Assembly (NCBI GenBank): GCA_012841625.1
Contig: DUUI01000007.1
Location: forward strand, 1-36,612
DNA length: 36,612 nt
DNA from: Erysipelothrix sp.
GTDB lineage: Bacteria > Bacillota_I > Bacilli_A > Erysipelotrichales > Erysipelotrichaceae
Reading direction: 5' to 3'
The position numbers and the translations under genes are program-made. This document shows, piece after piece, positions 1,862-12,001 of this stretch. The stretch's first letter is position 1, and the number at the start of each line of letters is the position of its first letter. The notes under the pieces are model-generated. The model worked only from the letters and a program-made list of their open reading frames with translations. It did not search any database and was not told where the DNA came from.

Positions 1862-3571
1862 TTATTGTGCATCCGCAATCGCTTCGTCAATTAAAGCAAT
1901 TACCTCTGCCTCAGTTCCACACTCCAATGCCTTAGCAGCTAATCCTTGCATTTCTGTATAATCTAAGCTTGTAAGCATTTTACGAGCTGGAAGAATTGAT
2001 GTTGCTGACATAGAGAACTCATCCAAACCAAGTCCTAATAAGACCGGAACCGCCTTAGCTTCTCCTGCCATTTCCCCACACATACCACACCATTTTCCTT
2101 CAGCATGAGCACCATCGATAGCCATCTTAATTAAACGAAGAATGGATGGATTATAAGGTTGGTACAGATATGAAACCTTTTGGTTCATTCTATCTGCAGC
2201 CATTGTATATTGTATTAAATCATTAGTTCCAATTGAGAAGAAATCTGCTTCCTTAGCAAGATTACGAGCATTCACAGCTGCTGCAGGGATTTCAATCATA
2301 ATCCCAACTTGAATAGAATCACTGACTTGTACTCCTTCTTTGGTAAGATTATCTTTTTCATCCATTAGAATTGCTTTGGCTTCCCTAAACTCTTCCAATG
2401 TCGCAACCATTGGGAACATAATCGCTAGATTTCCATAAACACTGGCTCTTAATAATGCACGAAGCTGTGTTCTAAAGATGTCTGTACGATCTAAACATAA
2501 ACGAATCGCTCTGTAACCTAGGAATGGATTCATTTCTTCTGGGAATTTTAGGTAGGATAATTCCTTATCTCCACCAATATCAAGTGTTCTAATGACAACC
2601 AGTTTTTGGTCCATTGACTCAAGAACTGATTTATATGCTTCATATTGTTCATCTTCAGTAGGTAAGCTCGTTGCATCCATATATAAGAATTCAGTACGAT
2701 ATAAACCGATGCCATCGCCACCATTCTCTAAAACACCCTCAACATCTTTAGGTGTTCCGATATTTCCAGATAACTCAACTTCATGTCCATCCTTAGATTT
2801 TGAAGGAGCATCCTTTAATGTCTTTAATGATTCACGATATTCTGCGTATTCAACTTCTTTTTGTCCATATAAATTCATTTGTTCATCCGTAGGATTAACA
2901 ATAACTACACCTTCTAAAGCATCAAGAACTAGCATATCACCATGTTTAACTTCATCTAAAACTCCAGTAATACCAACAACCGCTGGAATCTCAAGTGAGC
3001 GAGCCATGATTGCTGAGTGAGAGGTTCTGCCACCTATTTCAGTCGCAAATCCTTTTATAAACTGTTTATCTAATTGTGCAGTATCACTCGGTGTTAAATC
3101 ATGCGCAACAACAATTACCTGTTCATTTATTAGTGATAAATCAGGAACAGCAACGCCCAATGTATGAGCCAATAAACGATAGGTAACATCTTTAATATCT
3201 GCCGCTCTTTCTCTGAAGTATTCATCATCCATGCTCTCAAACATAGAAACAAACATTGTTTTAACTTGATCCACAGCACTACTAGCACTTTCACCAGAAT
3301 CAATTAAACCCTTAATTTGATCATGAAGTTCAGGATCAGTTGTTACAGCTAGATGAGCATCAAAGATAGCAAGTTCATCATCTGATAAACGTCCCACTGC
3401 TTTTACTTTAACTAATTCTATATCTTTTTGAGTTCTTTGTAGGGCTGATTCGAAAAGGTAGATTTCATCTTCTACACTTCCTTTTTCATGAGTTACCTCA
3501 AGAACTGGTTTTTGTAACTTATAAACTTTACTTGTCGCTACTCCTGATGATGCAGCTATTCCTTTTAACAT
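1862..3571 (-). CDS. ptsI: PTS enzyme I (phosphoenolpyruvate-protein phosphotransferase)
   Basis: A 569-aa cytoplasmic enzyme that takes phosphate from PEP onto a histidine and passes it to HPr, starting the sugar phosphotransferase cascade. The active-site histidine is H185 in GGRTSHSAI. The N-terminal HPr-binding helical domain, the phosphohistidine swivel domain and the C-terminal PEP-binding barrel (GIGLYRTEF, and the MIEIPAA and GTNDLIQYT motifs) are all present at normal length. The ATG has a good GGAGG. ptsH is not adjacent. The first of three genes; an extended -10 promoter lies immediately upstream. Confidence 0.97.
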
Positions 3572-3946: not shown

Positions 3947-4147
3947 ATTTGTAAATATAAGAAATAGTATTATAACTCCCCAAATCGCTAATAAGACTAG
4001 CAAGACAGTAGGTAGTAGTGTTTTTATAGCGCTCCAGATTAATAACCATTCATCTTTTCTACTAAGATTTAAGTCTTGAACCTTGCGGCGCATTTCATCA
4101 TATTCTTCTTCAGTATATTTGTCAGAGGGTTTCTTAAACAGATTCAT
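3938..4147 (-). CDS. Small single-span membrane protein after oppF
   Basis: A 69-aa protein with a charged N-terminal half (about 38 residues, amphipathic, rich in Glu/Arg/Lys) and one strong C-terminal membrane span (about residues 43-66). No family recognised. It overlaps the end of oppF by 14 bp and is the last gene before the operon terminator, so it is co-translated with the peptide transporter; a small accessory or stabilising subunit of the Opp complex is a plausible inference. Its stop codon lies in the loop of the terminator hairpin. Confidence 0.6.
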   Translation of the reverse strand: MNLFKKPSDKYTEEEYDEMRRKVQDLNLSRKDEWLLIWSAIKTLLPTVLLVLLAIWGVIILFLIFTNAL

Positions 4148-5696
4148 CTGAAATCGGCTCTAATAAGTGGCAAGCTACTTCATGTCCAGGACGAGCTTCT
4201 CTAAGAGCTGGCTCAACTTCAAAACATTGGTCAAACGCATATTTGCAACGTGTGTTGAAGTTACATCCTTTAGGAGGTCTAACCGCTGAAGGAATATCTC
4301 CCTCAAGAATTTGAAGTTCACTGACACCCTGCGCAATATCAGTTCTTGGAATAGCTTGAAGTAACGCTTGAGTATATGGATGCAGAGGAGTTTCAAAGAT
4401 ATTGTCAGATTCAGTAAGTTCAACAATATGACCTAAGTACATCACCGCAACACGATCAGAAATATATTTAACAACTGAAAGGTCATGTGTAATAAATAAA
4501 TAGGTTAAGCTAAACTCTTCTTTTAAATCTTGAAGTAAGTTAATGATTTGAGACTGAATTGAAACGTCTAACGCAGAAACAGCCTCATCACAAACAATGA
4601 AACGTGGACGCAGTGCCAATGCACGAGCAATCCCGATTCTTTGTCTTTGCCCACCAGAGAACTGGTGAGGGTAACGGTGGATAAAGTATGGAGCAAGTCC
4701 ACATTCACCCATAATATCTTGAATATACTCTTGGTAACCAGGAGAACGAGGTGATTCAAACAATCCGTGGGCAACAACACCTTCACCGATAATTTGTCCA
4801 ACCGTCATTCGTGGGTTTAAAGAAGAATAAGGGTCTTGGAAAATAATTTGTAAGTCTGCACGTAAACGACGCATTTCACTTGTTTCAAGTTTAGATAGGT
4901 CGATACCTGTATTGCGAATTGCTTCAAACTCATCATAACGATCATTGCCTCTGGCTTCATTACGTAAAACTTCAAGGTCTGCTTCACGTTCTTTAATGAT
5001 TTTTTCAAGGTCTAATTCACGTTGACTGATTTCGCTGATTTTCCTATCAATTTGAGCTAGTTTCTTAGCATTCTTAGGATTCGTTTTAGATGTTTCTAAT
5101 TCCTGAACCTCAACACGCTTATCCGCTAGTTCAACTTGGCGATCATACAAAGCAATTAAGGATGATGATACTTTTCTTAAATCTTTATGAGTAACTAATC
5201 CACCCACAATTCTAAATATATTGCGGTATTTGTTATGAATATCTCTAAGTTTTAGAGTCACACGCTCTTGTGCTTGTGCTTGCTCTAATTCAGTGTTACT
5301 AGGTGACAGTAATCTTTCTTCCAACGCTCTAAGTTCTTTTTCAGCCTTTAAGAAATCAGGATACTGTCTGGACAGAGACTGCATCACCTCTTTGGCATAA
5401 CGAGGCGCAATCTCAGCTAATGTATTGCCATAGTATAGCGTCGATCCATCTGTTTGTTCATAAAGTTGAACAATAGTACGACCTAATGTCGATTTACCAC
5501 AACCAGATTCACCAACTAAACCAAGGGTTTCACCTTTATATATATTCAAAGTAACGTTTTCATTCGCATGAACATATTCTTGTTGACGAGAAAACATTGA
5601 CTTTTTCTTAATCGGGAAATATTTCTTTAAATTTCGAATCGAAATTAGAACATCTTGATCTTTACTACTCGACGGCGTCAGGATTGAAGTGCTCAT
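4134..5696 (-). CDS. oppF: Oligopeptide ABC transporter ATPase OppF with coiled-coil insertion
   Basis: One of the two cytoplasmic ATPases of the Opp importer. Walker A GESGCGKST is at residues 62-70, the Q-loop FQDP at about 286, the signature FSGGQ at 346-350, Walker B ending in DE at 370-371, and the OppD/F C-terminal Cys-containing region (C-N-F-N-T-R-C) is present. At 520 aa it is about 190 residues longer than usual. The extra sequence lies at about 95-272, between Walker A and the Q-loop, and is highly charged and heptad-like (112-250), i.e. a coiled-coil hairpin. Long OppF proteins are known in Mollicutes. The start overlaps oppD by 32 bp. Confidence 0.93.
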   Translation of the reverse strand: MSTSILTPSSSKDQDVLISIRNLKKYFPIKKKSMFSRQQEYVHANENVTLNIYKGETLGLVGESGCGKSTLGRTIVQLYEQTDGSTLYYGNTLAEIAPRYAKEVMQSLSRQYPDFLKAEKELRALEERLLSPSNTELEQAQAQERVTLKLRDIHNKYRNIFRIVGGLVTHKDLRKVSSSLIALYDRQVELADKRVEVQELETSKTNPKNAKKLAQIDRKISEISQRELDLEKIIKEREADLEVLRNEARGNDRYDEFEAIRNTGIDLSKLETSEMRRLRADLQIIFQDPYSSLNPRMTVGQIIGEGVVAHGLFESPRSPGYQEYIQDIMGECGLAPYFIHRYPHQFSGGQRQRIGIARALALRPRFIVCDEAVSALDVSIQSQIINLLQDLKEEFSLTYLFITHDLSVVKYISDRVAVMYLGHIVELTESDNIFETPLHPYTQALLQAIPRTDIAQGVSELQILEGDIPSAVRPPKGCNFNTRCKYAFDQCFEVEPALREARPGHEVACHLLEPISDESV

Positions 5697-6695: not shown

Positions 6696-8585
6696 CTACT
6701 TCTCATTTGATTTCGGATCAAGTGCATCTCGAAGTCCGTCGCCAACTAAGTTAATTGATAATGCGGTGATAAAGACCATAAAGCCTGGGAAGACCCATCT
6801 CCACCAGTAATCCTCAATGACTGTCGCACTTTGAGCATCACTCAACATATTACCCCATGATGGGAATGGATAAGGAACACCAAACCCAAGGAAGGATAAA
6901 CCTGCTTCAATTAATAACGAACTTGCGTAACCTAAGGTAACTTGAACGATAATAATATTCAAAACATTAGGTAAGATATGCTTAAGTACAATATTCTTTT
7001 CTCTAATACCAAGAGCTCTGGCTGCCATAACGAAGTCTTTCTCACGTTCCGCAAGAATCTGTCCACGAACCAGACGAGAAATTCCTGGCCAACCAGTGAA
7101 CCCTAAGATTAACATAACCATAATCATTCGTTGTGTTGGCGGATAGCCTGCTGGCAGCATCGCAGATAATGTAATGACAAGTGGATAGAATGGGAATGAA
7201 CCAATAATCTCTCCAGCTCTCATCAATAAGTTGTCAATACGGCCTCCGTAGAAACCAGCAACCATACCGACTAAAGTACCTATAATAACTTGTAATAAGA
7301 TGGCAAGTGCACCGACAGTTAAGGATACACGTCCGCCATGGACTAAACGAGTAAATAAATCACGACCATATTCATCAGAACCTAGTATGAATCCGTTATT
7401 TCCCCAAGCCTCAACATCACCCTCTTCAGTGATTACATAGGATTGGAAGAAATCAGCAAAAATAACACTTCCATCAGAAACAGATTCAGGATAAACAGTT
7501 TGATTATAGTTATTGTCACCCCAAGAGACAACAGAACCATCCTCTAATAAAGCCGTCATGTGTTCACGACCACCCGCAATATCTACAACCTTTTGTCCAA
7601 AATCAGGAATTCTCATAACAGGTGCATTACTGGCTCCCCATCCATGAAGAGTTCCATCTTCATCAACAACAAAGGCGTTTCTAAACGTTATTGCGATTTT
7701 ACTGACTTTGTTAGTGCCTTCTCTAAATTCCTCAGGCATATAGCGGTTATGAACATTACCAGCGGCCCCAAAGACTCTAATTGTTCCATCCTCAAGAAGT
7801 GTAATTGCGGCAGTCGGTGAAATATCAAGATCAACAGCAAAACCATCAATTCCATCAGGAACTCTGTCTAATCTGTTGTTTGTAGTTGCGCCCCAGACTT
7901 TAATGTATCCATCATCAGTAATGAAGTACGACATTAAGTCAGCAGCACCAATAGACTTGATTCCTTGCTCTAAAAGTAAGGCTGGATTGTCCTCAAACAT
8001 TTCAGGCGGACAACCTCCGATAGGTGGACATGAAATATAACCACCAGAAGTGTCTTCAGCCTCCGCCAGCATTCTTTCAACGCCCGCTTGACCAAAGGTG
8101 TTATAGCCCCACCCATGAATTTCATTATCTTCGGTTAAGATAAGAATATGTCTATCACCTGCAGCTATATCAACGATATTCTCACTCTCAAGAATGTCAA
8201 GAATTCGCTGCGGTGGTGTTAAAACGTTATTGTTATTAACGCCCCAATAATAAATATCTCCTTCATCATCAAGTGCCACTGAAAAAGTAATTCCAGAAGC
8301 AATCTTAACAATATTTTTATTTTCGATTTCATTTGGATAGTCCAAATAACCAAAACCAGGACTAATATCGCGTAGAACTGGTTGGTCAAAATAAGGTTTA
8401 TGTTCACTAAGTGAAGAACCAATAAAGACAAATAAGAAAATAGAAATGAATGCAACTAACCCTGTAATTGCGAGCTTGTTACGAAAGAAGTTCTTCGCAG
8501 TCGCTTGCATAGGTGTATCAAATTTCTCAAATTCTTCTTGTTTCTTTTGTCCGTTTCGTAAATCTTTTTCTTTGTTTTCTGACAT
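6696..8585 (-). CDS. oppC: Peptide ABC transporter permease OppC with inserted RCC1-like propeller
   Basis: A 629-aa permease, about twice the usual ~300. Residues 1-60 are a cytoplasmic tail and TM1 (about 38-58). Residues 402-629 are a complete OppC core: the G-S-D-E-Y-G-R-D entry motif, four further spans and the EAA coupling loop (about 520-540). Between them, residues about 90-397 form seven units, each ending in a W-G or F-G motif (at about 114, 159, 231, 272, 316, 355 and 394) after a D/E-D/E-G turn, the RCC1 beta-propeller pattern. The insert would be extracytoplasmic. A CPPIGGC loop (C186, C192) lies in unit 2. The frame is continuous and base use matches the neighbours. The Shine-Dalgarno is AAGGGGG. 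Confidence 0.93.
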   Translation of the reverse strand: MSENKEKDLRNGQKKQEEFEKFDTPMQATAKNFFRNKLAITGLVAFISIFLFVFIGSSLSEHKPYFDQPVLRDISPGFGYLDYPNEIENKNIVKIASGITFSVALDDEGDIYYWGVNNNNVLTPPQRILDILESENIVDIAAGDRHILILTEDNEIHGWGYNTFGQAGVERMLAEAEDTSGGYISCPPIGGCPPEMFEDNPALLLEQGIKSIGAADLMSYFITDDGYIKVWGATTNNRLDRVPDGIDGFAVDLDISPTAAITLLEDGTIRVFGAAGNVHNRYMPEEFREGTNKVSKIAITFRNAFVVDEDGTLHGWGASNAPVMRIPDFGQKVVDIAGGREHMTALLEDGSVVSWGDNNYNQTVYPESVSDGSVIFADFFQSYVITEEGDVEAWGNNGFILGSDEYGRDLFTRLVHGGRVSLTVGALAILLQVIIGTLVGMVAGFYGGRIDNLLMRAGEIIGSFPFYPLVITLSAMLPAGYPPTQRMIMVMLILGFTGWPGISRLVRGQILAEREKDFVMAARALGIREKNIVLKHILPNVLNIIIVQVTLGYASSLLIEAGLSFLGFGVPYPFPSWGNMLSDAQSATVIEDYWWRWVFPGFMVFITALSINLVGDGLRDALDPKSNEK

Positions 8586-8599
8586 GATACTACCCCCTT

Positions 8600-9598
8600 C
8601 TAATCTAAGCGAATGCGTGGGTCAACCAAAGCATAGCCGACATCCATCACCATATTTGCTGATAATGCAATCAATGTATAGAACATATTCATAGCTAATA
8701 CAACATCATAGTCTTTGTTAATAACACCAGTAATTAAGTAGTTGCCTATACCCTCAAATGAGAACATTCTCTCAGTAATGGCAGCCCCACCAAACATACC
8801 AGCAATACCCCAAGCTACAACTGTAACAACAGGAATTAAAGCATTTCTAAAAGCGTGTGAATAAACAACTTTTCTTTCGCTAACTCCTTTAGAGCGAGCG
8901 GTTCTTATATAATCTTGAGACAATGATTCAATCATTGCATTACGCACATAACGTGACGTTGAAGCAAATGAACCAATGGTCAAAGTAATTGTTGGTAAAA
9001 CTAAAATTCTGGCCCATTCCAAGAAATAAGCAATGTCACCATTTTCACCCCTAAAGATTGATGTTGGAGGCATACTTGCTGATGGGAACCAGCCCAATTT
9101 TTGAGCAAAAACAAATATTAAAATCATAGCAATAAAGAAGGTCGGGAGTGAATACCCAATCATAGACATTACTTGCCAGAATCGATCATATAGTTTTCCT
9201 TGTCTTACTGCTGATTTTATACCTATTACAATCGATATTAAAAACGCTAAAATGGTTGATCCTATATTAAGAATCAAACTATTTCGTAATGGATTAGCAA
9301 CCACATCCACAACTGGTCTTACATATTGTGTGGAATTACCAAAGTTTCCTTGTAATGTTCTTTGAGCCCATCTCACATACTGAACCGGAATTGGTTGATC
9401 ATACCCCAATCTCGCGGCTGTTTCTGCGTAAACTCTATCAAAAATAACTGGGTCGTTATATGTCCCAGTTTCATCAATTGGCATGTGACGAAGTACTGGG
9501 TCTCCTGGCATTGCTTTAAGCATTCCAAATAATACAATCGAAATAATGAATACAACAGGAATTAAAGCAATTAATCGTTTAACTATATATTTTAACAT
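8600..9598 (-). CDS. oppB: Peptide ABC transporter permease OppB
   Basis: A 332-aa inner-membrane permease of the Opp importer: TM1 at the N-terminus, a long extracytoplasmic loop (GDPVLRHM and onward) and five more spans with the EAA loop (IRTARSKGVSERKV). I place the start at the ATG of MLKYIVKRL, the normal OppB N-terminus. A longer in-frame GTG at 9646 would read through the Shine-Dalgarno and is rejected. The nearest strong Shine-Dalgarno (AAAGGAGGG, 9631-9639) is separated from this ATG by a perfect hairpin at 9606-9629. Confidence 0.92.
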   Translation of the reverse strand: MLKYIVKRLIALIPVVFIISIVLFGMLKAMPGDPVLRHMPIDETGTYNDPVIFDRVYAETAARLGYDQPIPVQYVRWAQRTLQGNFGNSTQYVRPVVDVVANPLRNSLILNIGSTILAFLISIVIGIKSAVRQGKLYDRFWQVMSMIGYSLPTFFIAMILIFVFAQKLGWFPSASMPPTSIFRGENGDIAYFLEWARILVLPTITLTIGSFASTSRYVRNAMIESLSQDYIRTARSKGVSERKVVYSHAFRNALIPVVTVVAWGIAGMFGGAAITERMFSFEGIGNYLITGVINKDYDVVLAMNMFYTLIALSANMVMDVGYALVDPRIRLD

Positions 9599-9626
9599 AC
9601 TGTTCCATATGTTCCTTATAGAACAT
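9579..9626 (-). CDS. Possible 15-codon leader ORF overlapping the oppB start
   Basis: An ATG at 9626 sits five bases after a perfect AGGAGG and opens a 15-codon frame that stops inside the first codons of oppB, in another frame. It may be translated and couple to oppB, or the Shine-Dalgarno may serve oppB through the hairpin at 9606-9629. No conservation is visible from one sequence, so this is tentative. Confidence 0.3.
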   Translation of the reverse strand: MFYKEHMEQYVKIYS

Positions 9627-9629
9627 ATG
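9606..9629 (-). promoter_or_regulatory. Perfect hairpin between Shine-Dalgarno and oppB ATG
   Basis: CATATGTTC-TATAAG-GAACATATG is a perfect 9-bp inverted repeat with a 6-nt loop on the minus strand. It lies between AAAGGAGGG (9631-9639) and the oppB ATG (9598). If the RNA hairpin forms, the distance from Shine-Dalgarno to ATG falls from 32 nt to about 9 nt, an efficient spacing. Confidence 0.6.
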
Positions 9630-9704
9630 ACCCTCCTTTCAAACACTCATTATTACTCGATAAATTGGACAAGAATCAATTTACCCAGTAATATTGCTTG
9701 TTAT

Positions 9705-9811: not shown

Positions 9812-12001
9812 TTAACGTTCAATTGAAACATCATTGATGTCATATTGCCATGGCCAATCTGGAGTTGTATCTAAACCTTTAACCGCATAAGATGCGATAT
9901 CGAAGTATTCGTTAGAATATAGAGGAATACCAGGTAGATTGTCATTAAACCATAATTGCCATTCTAACCATGCATCTAAGAACGCATCAGTATCTGCTGG
10001 ATCTATTCTACGCATAGATGCTGTAATTTCGTCAACTACAGGATCATCTAATTGGTTAGTGTTAGTTGTAGTATTTAAAAGATCTGAGTGGAATCCATAG
10101 TTATATGGATCATAAGTAGGAGTGAATCCTGAACCAAGTGTAAATGCTTGGTAAGTTCTGTTCTCTGGTGCAGTTTGGAAACCATAGTAGAAGTCTTGTA
10201 GTAATGTGTCAAAGTCAATTAAATCTCCAACCCATCTTAGTCCAGCAAGACGTCCATTAGGAACCATTTCACCAACAACAACGTTAAGAACTGCTTCTGA
10301 TGCACCACCGTGGAATACTTCTAGCGGAGTACCTTCAGCATTATGACGCCAGTAACTGTAGTCTTCACCATCAGTTTCAACTGCTTCAGCAGCTTTAACA
10401 GCGTCCCATGGAGTCGTTCCATCTGCTTCGAAAACATATGGAGACTCATCTAATAATTCGTTAGCACGGTCAACGTCTAATGTGTATGCAGTTCCTCTTT
10501 CTTCAATTAAGTCAAGGAATTCATCACCTTTAGCAGCATAAGTCCATTGTGATAATCCATAATGTCCTTGTCCAACGATACCAAATCCACCAGAGACTCC
10601 ATCAACTAATTTTTGACGGTCAATTAGGAATGCGATCGCTTGACGTACTTCTTTATGATTAACAGGTTCAGCATCTACTGTAAAGTCAAGAACACCATAT
10701 CCATTACGAGGATAAGAATAAAGAATTGTCTTTCCTTCTTCTTCAGCTTCTAAAGCCTTGTCAATCTTTCCGATTTCAATTACACCTGGAGCCAAGTCAG
10801 CTTCACCATTGATAACCATATCAACGTCAACTTCTTCGTTAACTCCTCTAACAGAAACTCTTTCAACTGAAGGAGTTCTTCCTTGGAAGTTTCCAACGTA
10901 GTTAGGGTTTCTTTCAACCAATGCATTTTGGTTTTCAAATAATACAAACTGGTAAGGTCCAGTCACGACATCTGGTGCAAATAAGTAAGTACTTGCGATG
11001 TCATAAGCTCCTGATTGTAGAAGTAATTTAGCAGCATCTACGTTTTCGCCAGCTTCAGCAGCAGCGATTTCGTCATTGATGACAGCGATTTGCTCTTCAA
11101 GAGCAGCAATTGCTTCTAAATCTGCAGAATCATCATATTCTGCATCTTCTTCAACTGCTTCAGCAATAGCTTCATTGATTGCATCAATTTGTGCTTGAAG
11201 ATCAGCTTTACGATTGTTTGCTCCTTCAACATAAGCAGCGATATCTTCATCTGATAATGTGTGATCAGCAGCAACTACTAATGATGATCCATCTTCACCA
11301 ATGTCTAGCCCTGGAGCGAAACGGAACATTGGAGTTGGGGATGCAGATACATATAGAACTTCATAGAAGTATGGAAGTTCGTCTGCAGCGATTGTTAATT
11401 CGAATGTCATGTCGTCTACTAATCTAACACCTGGGAATGAATCAGATTCGCCAGCGTAGTATTCAGTTTTACCAACTAAACCTTGACCAGTTGTTGATGC
11501 CATTGTAGCACCAGCTCTTAGCCATTCAGGTGAAGCAGCAAATAATAGTCCAAATACATAGTCTTTAGCAGTAATTGCTTCGCCAGTGTTATATGTTAGA
11601 CCTTCGTTGATAGTGAAAGCATAAGTTTTACTACCATCTTCGTTTTCTGTAACTACTTCTTCTGCAACAGCTGTTTCGTTAAGGACGAATTGTCCACCTT
11701 CATCTGTTACATAAGTTCCATAGTCATAGATTAGGTCACGAACCATCTTGTCATAAGATGAGTTTGTGAATCCTGCTAAGAAGTGTCCAGTTAAGTTAGC
11801 ACCAACTACTACACGTAGTTCGTTACCAGCATCTGAACCAGGTGCTGGTTCTTCTTCTGGATCCTCAGGCTCTTCTTCGCCTGGATCTTCTTCGCCTGGT
11901 TCTACTGTTGGAGGTTCTTCGGTAGGTTCATCAGTTGATGCACAGCCTACGACTAAGAATAAAGCCAACAAGAGAGCCAAGAGAGTTTTTAAATATTTCA
12001 T
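9812..12001 (-). CDS. oppA: Oligopeptide-binding lipoprotein OppA with coiled-coil insertion
   Basis: A 729-aa extracytoplasmic substrate-binding protein of family SBP_bac_5. A signal peptide ends in the lipobox L-V-V-G-C20, so it is lipid-anchored at Cys20. Residues 21-58 are a Glu/Pro-rich acidic linker with repeated E-E-P/P-G-E-E units. The binding domain shows the typical N-T-G-E-A-I-T-A-K-D-Y segment and the R-x-A-I-A-F-L-I-D-R motif. An Ala/Glu-rich segment at about 262-318 (alternating D-L-x-A-x-I and E-E-Q-I-A) looks like a short coiled-coil hairpin not typical of the family. First gene of the opp locus; Shine-Dalgarno AAGGAGG. Confidence 0.93.
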   Translation of the reverse strand: MKYLKTLLALLLALFLVVGCASTDEPTEEPPTVEPGEEDPGEEEPEDPEEEPAPGSDAGNELRVVVGANLTGHFLAGFTNSSYDKMVRDLIYDYGTYVTDEGGQFVLNETAVAEEVVTENEDGSKTYAFTINEGLTYNTGEAITAKDYVFGLLFAASPEWLRAGATMASTTGQGLVGKTEYYAGESDSFPGVRLVDDMTFELTIAADELPYFYEVLYVSASPTPMFRFAPGLDIGEDGSSLVVAADHTLSDEDIAAYVEGANNRKADLQAQIDAINEAIAEAVEEDAEYDDSADLEAIAALEEQIAVINDEIAAAEAGENVDAAKLLLQSGAYDIASTYLFAPDVVTGPYQFVLFENQNALVERNPNYVGNFQGRTPSVERVSVRGVNEEVDVDMVINGEADLAPGVIEIGKIDKALEAEEEGKTILYSYPRNGYGVLDFTVDAEPVNHKEVRQAIAFLIDRQKLVDGVSGGFGIVGQGHYGLSQWTYAAKGDEFLDLIEERGTAYTLDVDRANELLDESPYVFEADGTTPWDAVKAAEAVETDGEDYSYWRHNAEGTPLEVFHGGASEAVLNVVVGEMVPNGRLAGLRWVGDLIDFDTLLQDFYYGFQTAPENRTYQAFTLGSGFTPTYDPYNYGFHSDLLNTTTNTNQLDDPVVDEITASMRRIDPADTDAFLDAWLEWQLWFNDNLPGIPLYSNEYFDIASYAVKGLDTTPDWPWQYDINDVSIER

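Follow-up and report, generated by a model that had tools for sequence, protein, structure and literature searches.

The window analyzed here is the whole stretch of 36,612 nucleotides at positions 1 to 36,612 of the Erysipelothrix contig DUUI01000007.1. It contains an opp operon in the order oppA-oppB-oppC-oppD-oppF, with all genes on the minus strand, in which oppC encodes a protein of 629 aa that combines a complete permease with an RCC1-type insert. The genes of the operon are the following:

9812-12001, minus strand: oppA, lipoprotein of the SBP_bac_5 family, 729 aa (Pfam; AlphaFold2 model with pLDDT 84)
8600-9646, minus strand: oppB, permease partner of ordinary length, 348 aa (Pfam and alignment)
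6696-8585, minus strand: oppC with the RCC1 insert, whole gene, 629 aa
5665-6684, minus strand: oppD, 339 aa (Pfam)
4134-5696, minus strand: oppF with an internal insert, 520 aa (Pfam)

The oppC frame begins with ATG and is open and intact over its entire length, as claimed in the preliminary description. The same description had proposed that this OppC carries a complete set of seven RCC1-type units between the first transmembrane segment (TM1) and the permease core; Pfam, AlphaFold2, Foldseek, and an HMM of a single blade all agree with this layout, which comprises three parts:

8382-8516, minus strand: OppC_N domain with TM1, residues 24-68 (Pfam PF12911; AlphaFold2 places the helices of the TM1 region at residues 25-35 and 37-59)
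7389-8360, minus strand: RCC1-like insert, predicted seven-bladed propeller, residues 76-399
6699-7388, minus strand: OppC permease core with BPD_transp_1, residues 400-629 (Pfam PF00528; Foldseek match to 8z21_B)

The Pfam matches to the permease are OppC_N at residues 24-68 (E = 1.8e-8; 34.6 bits against a cut-off of 23.9) and BPD_transp_1 at residues 436-625 (E = 2.1e-26; 93.2 bits against 26.4), and those to the insert are RCC1_2 (E = 1.6e-36; 123.6 bits against 22) and RCC1 (E = 6.7e-8; 33.4 bits against 21.7), with repeats of the RCC1 family covering residues ~88 to 398. The insert, originally delimited at residues 90-397, is real but is better bounded at ~76-399 because residues 77-78 and 398-399 also make short strands, which flank the propeller in the AlphaFold2 model. 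Alignment places it in the TM1-TM2 loop and leaves the permease core and the coupling motif unaltered; the extracytoplasmic location of this loop follows from the known topology of OppC and DppC (PMC12136057).

Judging from the AlphaFold2 model and the Foldseek comparison, the permease is predicted to fold like the OppC-type permeases of type I importers. In the Foldseek search, the core matched E. coli OppC (8z21_B; 42% identity, TMt 0.71), as well as DppC (8z1v_B) and an M. tuberculosis protein (8j5q_C), and phmmer against the PDB retrieved E. coli OppC with residues 397-626 (E = 1.5e-52). Among the NCBIfam models, the permease appears closest to the Opp4 type: the best match is Opp4C (NF045476; 326.9 bits, residues 376-625 only), which does not reach the equivalog cut-off of 350 bits and so indicates the nearest model, with membership not assigned.

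The AlphaFold2 model of the 629-aa OppC was built with 30 homologues and has a mean pLDDT of 84 and a pTM of 0.78, with most propeller blocks at pLDDT 82-96. In this model, the insert consists of exactly seven blades of three strands each:

8241-8312, minus strand: core strands of blade 1, residues 92-115 (AlphaFold2, DSSP; RCC1_2 at 8229-8312)
8106-8177, minus strand: core strands of blade 2, residues 137-160 (AlphaFold2; RCC1_2 at 8088-8177)
7962-8105, minus strand: long loop between blades 2 and 3, residues 161-208 (low confidence, poorest at ~171-200)
7890-7961, minus strand: core strands of blade 3, residues 209-232 (AlphaFold2)
7767-7838, minus strand: core strands of blade 4, residues 250-273 (AlphaFold2)
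7635-7706, minus strand: core strands of blade 5, residues 294-317 (RCC1_2 at 7629-7706, below the cut-off)
7518-7589, minus strand: core strands of blade 6, residues 333-356 (RCC1_2 at 7500-7589)
7401-7472, minus strand: core strands of blade 7, residues 372-395 (AlphaFold2)

Blade 7 passes straight into the permease entry WGNNGFILGSDEYGRD. The loop between blades 2 and 3 is the sole poorly predicted part of the propeller, and its extra length is present, among the aligned sequences, only in the window and in a relative from the same genus. The N-terminal residues of the insert (the 77-78 region) probably take part in ring closure in the model. The segment GYLDYPNEI ahead of blade 1 is similar to the outer-strand segments between the other blades and, on this sequence resemblance, probably supplies the outer strand that is absent from blade 7, closing the ring.

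Foldseek matched the insert best to BLIP-II chains (TMt 0.82-0.83, 24-26% identity), followed by UVR8 and other RCC1 propellers, and phmmer against the PDB likewise retrieved UVR8, HERC2, and BLIP-II. Thus, the insert is predicted to close as a seven-bladed ring, with the modeled units, the structural similarity to closed propellers, and the blade HMM all pointing the same way, and the expectation of a closed propeller in the structure prediction is borne out. Chance repeats are rejected by Pfam, Foldseek, and AlphaFold2. Ran guanine-nucleotide exchange activity is not expected for an extracytoplasmic bacterial domain.

To examine the distribution of this architecture, insert sequences of eight genomes were aligned and used as the query. 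A full-length RCC1-OppC is encoded in 53 of the 316 genomes of the order, at 54 places, all within the family to which the window belongs, and an evenly drawn sample of the class yielded more cases in families f6, f11, f17, and f22. Named carriers include Erysipelothrix inopinata (complete chromosome), E. tonsillarum, E. urinaevulpis, Longicatena caecimuris, Dielma fastidiosa, and Peloplasma aerotolerans; those among metagenome-assembled genomes (MAGs) are assigned to Erysipelotrichaceae, Acholeplasmataceae, Oscillospiraceae, and other Bacillota. More than 50 independent genomes, the complete E. inopinata chromosome among them, share this architecture, which rules out an assembly join or chimera. 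Within the window's genome, RCC1-OppC is the sole protein in which a profile search detected RCC1_2 repeats (PF13540); PF00415 is a poor probe for these repeats, and a search of the same genome with this profile returned nothing at E 0.001. At two other loci (L040:4163-5944 and L041:5525-7270), proteins of ~590 aa are encoded beside cysS-like genes. The L040 protein combines RCC1 repeats with a helix-turn-helix at its N-terminus and a probable TM segment, and the two could possibly be one-component membrane regulators with an outside propeller.

In a tree of 59 sequences constructed from the permease core alone, with the insert excluded, all 35 RCC1-OppCs tested fall on one side of a branch with support of 98/95, so that, by this sequence-based phylogeny, RCC1-OppC is one clade with a single origin; no member of this clade was seen to have lost the propeller. 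The nearest sequences without RCC1 repeats are ordinary OppCs of ~300-335 aa from the same family, along with two OppCs whose TM1-TM2 loop accommodates a different insert of ~200 aa that matches nothing in Pfam (L038:7651-9345 in genome G015 and L039:7769-9319 in genome G005). The blade HMM recognizes seven units in the window and in nearly all members of the clade, and the few members with five or six recognized units are divergent or broken up by big loops. Two RCC1-OppCs of Acholeplasmataceae (L110:7677-10034, 785 aa, and L111:5583-9017, 1144 aa) owe their extra length to large inserts between propeller blades, partly coiled-coil-like, which implies that parts of the propeller surface are unconstrained. 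The insert evolves ~2.5 times faster than the permease core, and its identity to the window sequence is 34-47% even in near relatives.

The genes oppA, oppB, oppD, and oppF surround the RCC1-oppC gene in the loci that were read wherever the flanks were long enough and the ORFs resolved. In the window, the opp operon is adjoined by ptsI (1862-3571), a neighbor that it shares with a sizable fraction of the RCC1-OppC operons and with a non-RCC1 relative (L045). The OppF of the window contains an insert of ~150-180 aa between the Walker A region and the Q-loop (~4947-5426). OppFs of similar length are encoded in the non-RCC1 relatives L042, L045, and L047, and the insert is missing in L043 and in L096, the latter being an RCC1 operon. 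Its presence does not follow the RCC1 operons, so the OppF insert is independent of the propeller and a link between the two is rejected.

Two regions of additional sequence can be delineated in the OppA of the window:

11042-11269, minus strand: helical hairpin insert of OppA, residues ~245-320, restricted to close relatives
10322-10447, minus strand: lobe-2 extension of OppA, residues ~519-560, co-segregating with RCC1-OppC

The hairpin, two helices predicted by AlphaFold2 with high confidence, accounts for most of the extra length of the 729-aa protein. It is common to the window and near relatives such as L079 and is lacking in most RCC1-OppC operons, in which OppA has ~590-620 aa. The proposed coupling of the propeller to a long OppA is therefore abandoned, and of the suggestion that the OppC insertion is conserved in a clade together with an OppA insertion, the clade stands, whereas the hairpin is not clade-wide. 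The lobe-2 extension, assigned to this lobe (domain III of such binding proteins; PMC11192437) by its place in the alignment with solved OppAs, behaves differently. The segment between the "LLD" helix and the next strand is 45-76 aa long in 40 distinct RCC1 operons compared to 21-43 aa in 22 non-RCC1 operons, although the non-RCC1 OppAs in this comparison are mostly distant and the gap at its narrowest is 43 vs 45 aa; in the four nearest sister operons without RCC1, the segment is 34-35 aa long. In the window, the extension holds a confidently predicted helix (534-547). Because the RCC1 clade has a single origin, the association of this extension with the propeller amounts to one evolutionary event. 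In a separate observation, the OppA of genome G020 (L042:4277-6019) resembles a natural circular permutant in which the usual C-terminal segment (36-156) precedes the usual N-terminal part (160-579), with the lipoprotein signal intact.

The best explanation, to which we assign about an even chance of being correct, is that the propeller is an extracytoplasmic platform for docking or clamping OppA in the oligopeptide ABC importer OppABCDF. The two ends of the propeller come together at blade 7, close to the membrane, which places the domain, held by a short stalk, at the rim of the translocation pathway. We infer that, as a fixed platform, the propeller would touch lobe 2 of OppA, keep the binding protein oriented, and help to wall off the outward-facing cavity during peptide hand-over, comparable to the engagement of MalE by MalF-P2 and to the role proposed for AmiC ECD2. 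In an AlphaFold model of the pneumococcal Ami importer, residues 64-99 (TM1-TM2) of the OppC-type subunit AmiD contact lobe 2 of the oligopeptide-binding protein, and the OppB-type subunit AmiC clamps this protein with two extracellular domains (PMC11192437); in DppABCDF, a scoop motif on the OppB side seals the cavity (PMC12136057), and MalF-P2 directly contacts MalE (PMC3150292). The propeller stands where lobe 2 of OppA is expected, which makes docking or clamping the simplest reading. Moreover, with a sole RCC1 protein detected in the genome and opp genes as its neighbors, the partner of the propeller most simply lies inside the Opp complex. The lobe-2 extension of OppA and the retention of seven units in a divergent clade also favor docking, as does a mild bias of conservation toward the AB loops of blades 1, 2, and 7, which lie beside the attachment and are better conserved than the other AB loops; stronger face-specific conservation is rejected. 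Several results count against docking: the conserved positions of the propeller are mostly structural, the insert evolves faster than the core, the big loops of L110 and L111 point to unconstrained surface, and the OppA extension represents one event. In addition, the mirror-tree analysis detected no OppA-specific co-evolution with the insert (partial correlation -0.01, or 0.08 after thinning), the only clearly non-zero partial correlation being with OppD (0.33).

The lack of an OppA-specific signal would also be compatible with a surface adaptor that attaches to a target beyond the Opp complex (a cell-wall polymer, a secreted or surface protease, another lipoprotein, or a host or community protein) and brings the importer near a peptide source, a reading that we consider unlikely but deserving of attention. 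RCC1-type propellers are generic protein-binding scaffolds, the closest structural match, BLIP-II, is itself a secreted protein-binding propeller, and the insert diverges faster than OppA and bears lineage-specific loops. However, no partner was found, no extra gene other than ptsI (in part of the clade) recurs beside the operon in the loci read, and a domain on a short stalk should lie near OppA. A bolder version, in which the propeller would act as an independent extracellular receptor that captures an outside partner or ligand and couples binding to peptide uptake, is in our estimate distinctly improbable; if true, Opp would be a surface receptor-transporter and not simply an importer. We are equally skeptical that the propeller handles the substrate directly, binding or gating peptides on a second surface at the mouth of the channel and filtering them by length or sequence: the position at the lip of the pathway would suit this role and propeller centers commonly bind ligands, but the conservation analysis did not bring out a cluster of conserved non-structural positions such as ligand pockets typically show, and OppA already provides specificity. 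Least probable of all is a nearly neutral ornament, acquired by a single ancestor whose loop tolerated it and kept because it folds, a notion that fits the single origin, the unrelated ~200-aa inserts of G015 and G005, and the huge loops of L110 and L111, but not the retention of seven units across several families despite the drop in insert identity to 34-47%, with no loss seen within the clade.

Opp/Dpp peptide importers are among the best-studied ABC transporters, and the protein described here shares with type I peptide importers the OppC_N and BPD_transp_1 domains and the oppABCDF operon. Its core is similar to those of E. coli OppC (8z21_B), DppC (8z1v), and M. tuberculosis Rv1282c (8j5q), with 32-42% identity and TMt up to 0.73; however, the known OppC and DppC structures have ~290-300 aa and a short TM1-TM2 loop, in place of which a propeller of ~320 aa is found here. 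NCBIfam has no model for the fused RCC1-OppC: the best one, Opp4C, resembles the permease part, below the cut-off, and the propeller falls outside it. No published description of RCC1-OppC was found in the open-access literature that was searched, and as far as this literature and NCBIfam go, the earlier statement that no peptide importer of this build has been described holds.

None of the individual parts is new, and there are precedents for a large permease domain that engages the binding protein. BLIP-II is, like the insert, a bacterial extracellular seven-bladed RCC1-like propeller, but it is a free secreted beta-lactamase inhibitor, whereas the propeller here is an internal domain of a membrane permease, and nothing in this analysis suggests a role in beta-lactamase binding. 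The P2 domain of MalF in the maltose importer (MalF residues 91-271) belongs to a different transporter subfamily and differs in fold and loop. It nevertheless provides a parallel, as it is the extracytoplasmic part of a permease subunit and touches the binding protein of that importer (PMC3150292). Streptococcal AmiC (498 aa, with ECD1 and ECD2) offers another parallel, this time within the peptide importers: residues 31-278 of this permease make up a large part outside the cell that is proposed to act as a clamp on the binding protein (PMC11192437). AmiC is, however, the OppB-side subunit, and its domains are not described as RCC1 propellers. In a whole clade that extends over Erysipelotrichales, Acholeplasmataceae, and Clostridia-type MAGs, the outer face of the permease bears a propeller, with culturable carriers in Dielma, Longicatena, Peloplasma, and Erysipelothrix and with OppA as a directly testable partner. 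Set beside MalF-P2 and AmiC, this clade is a natural experiment in the ways in which binding proteins are held by their permeases.
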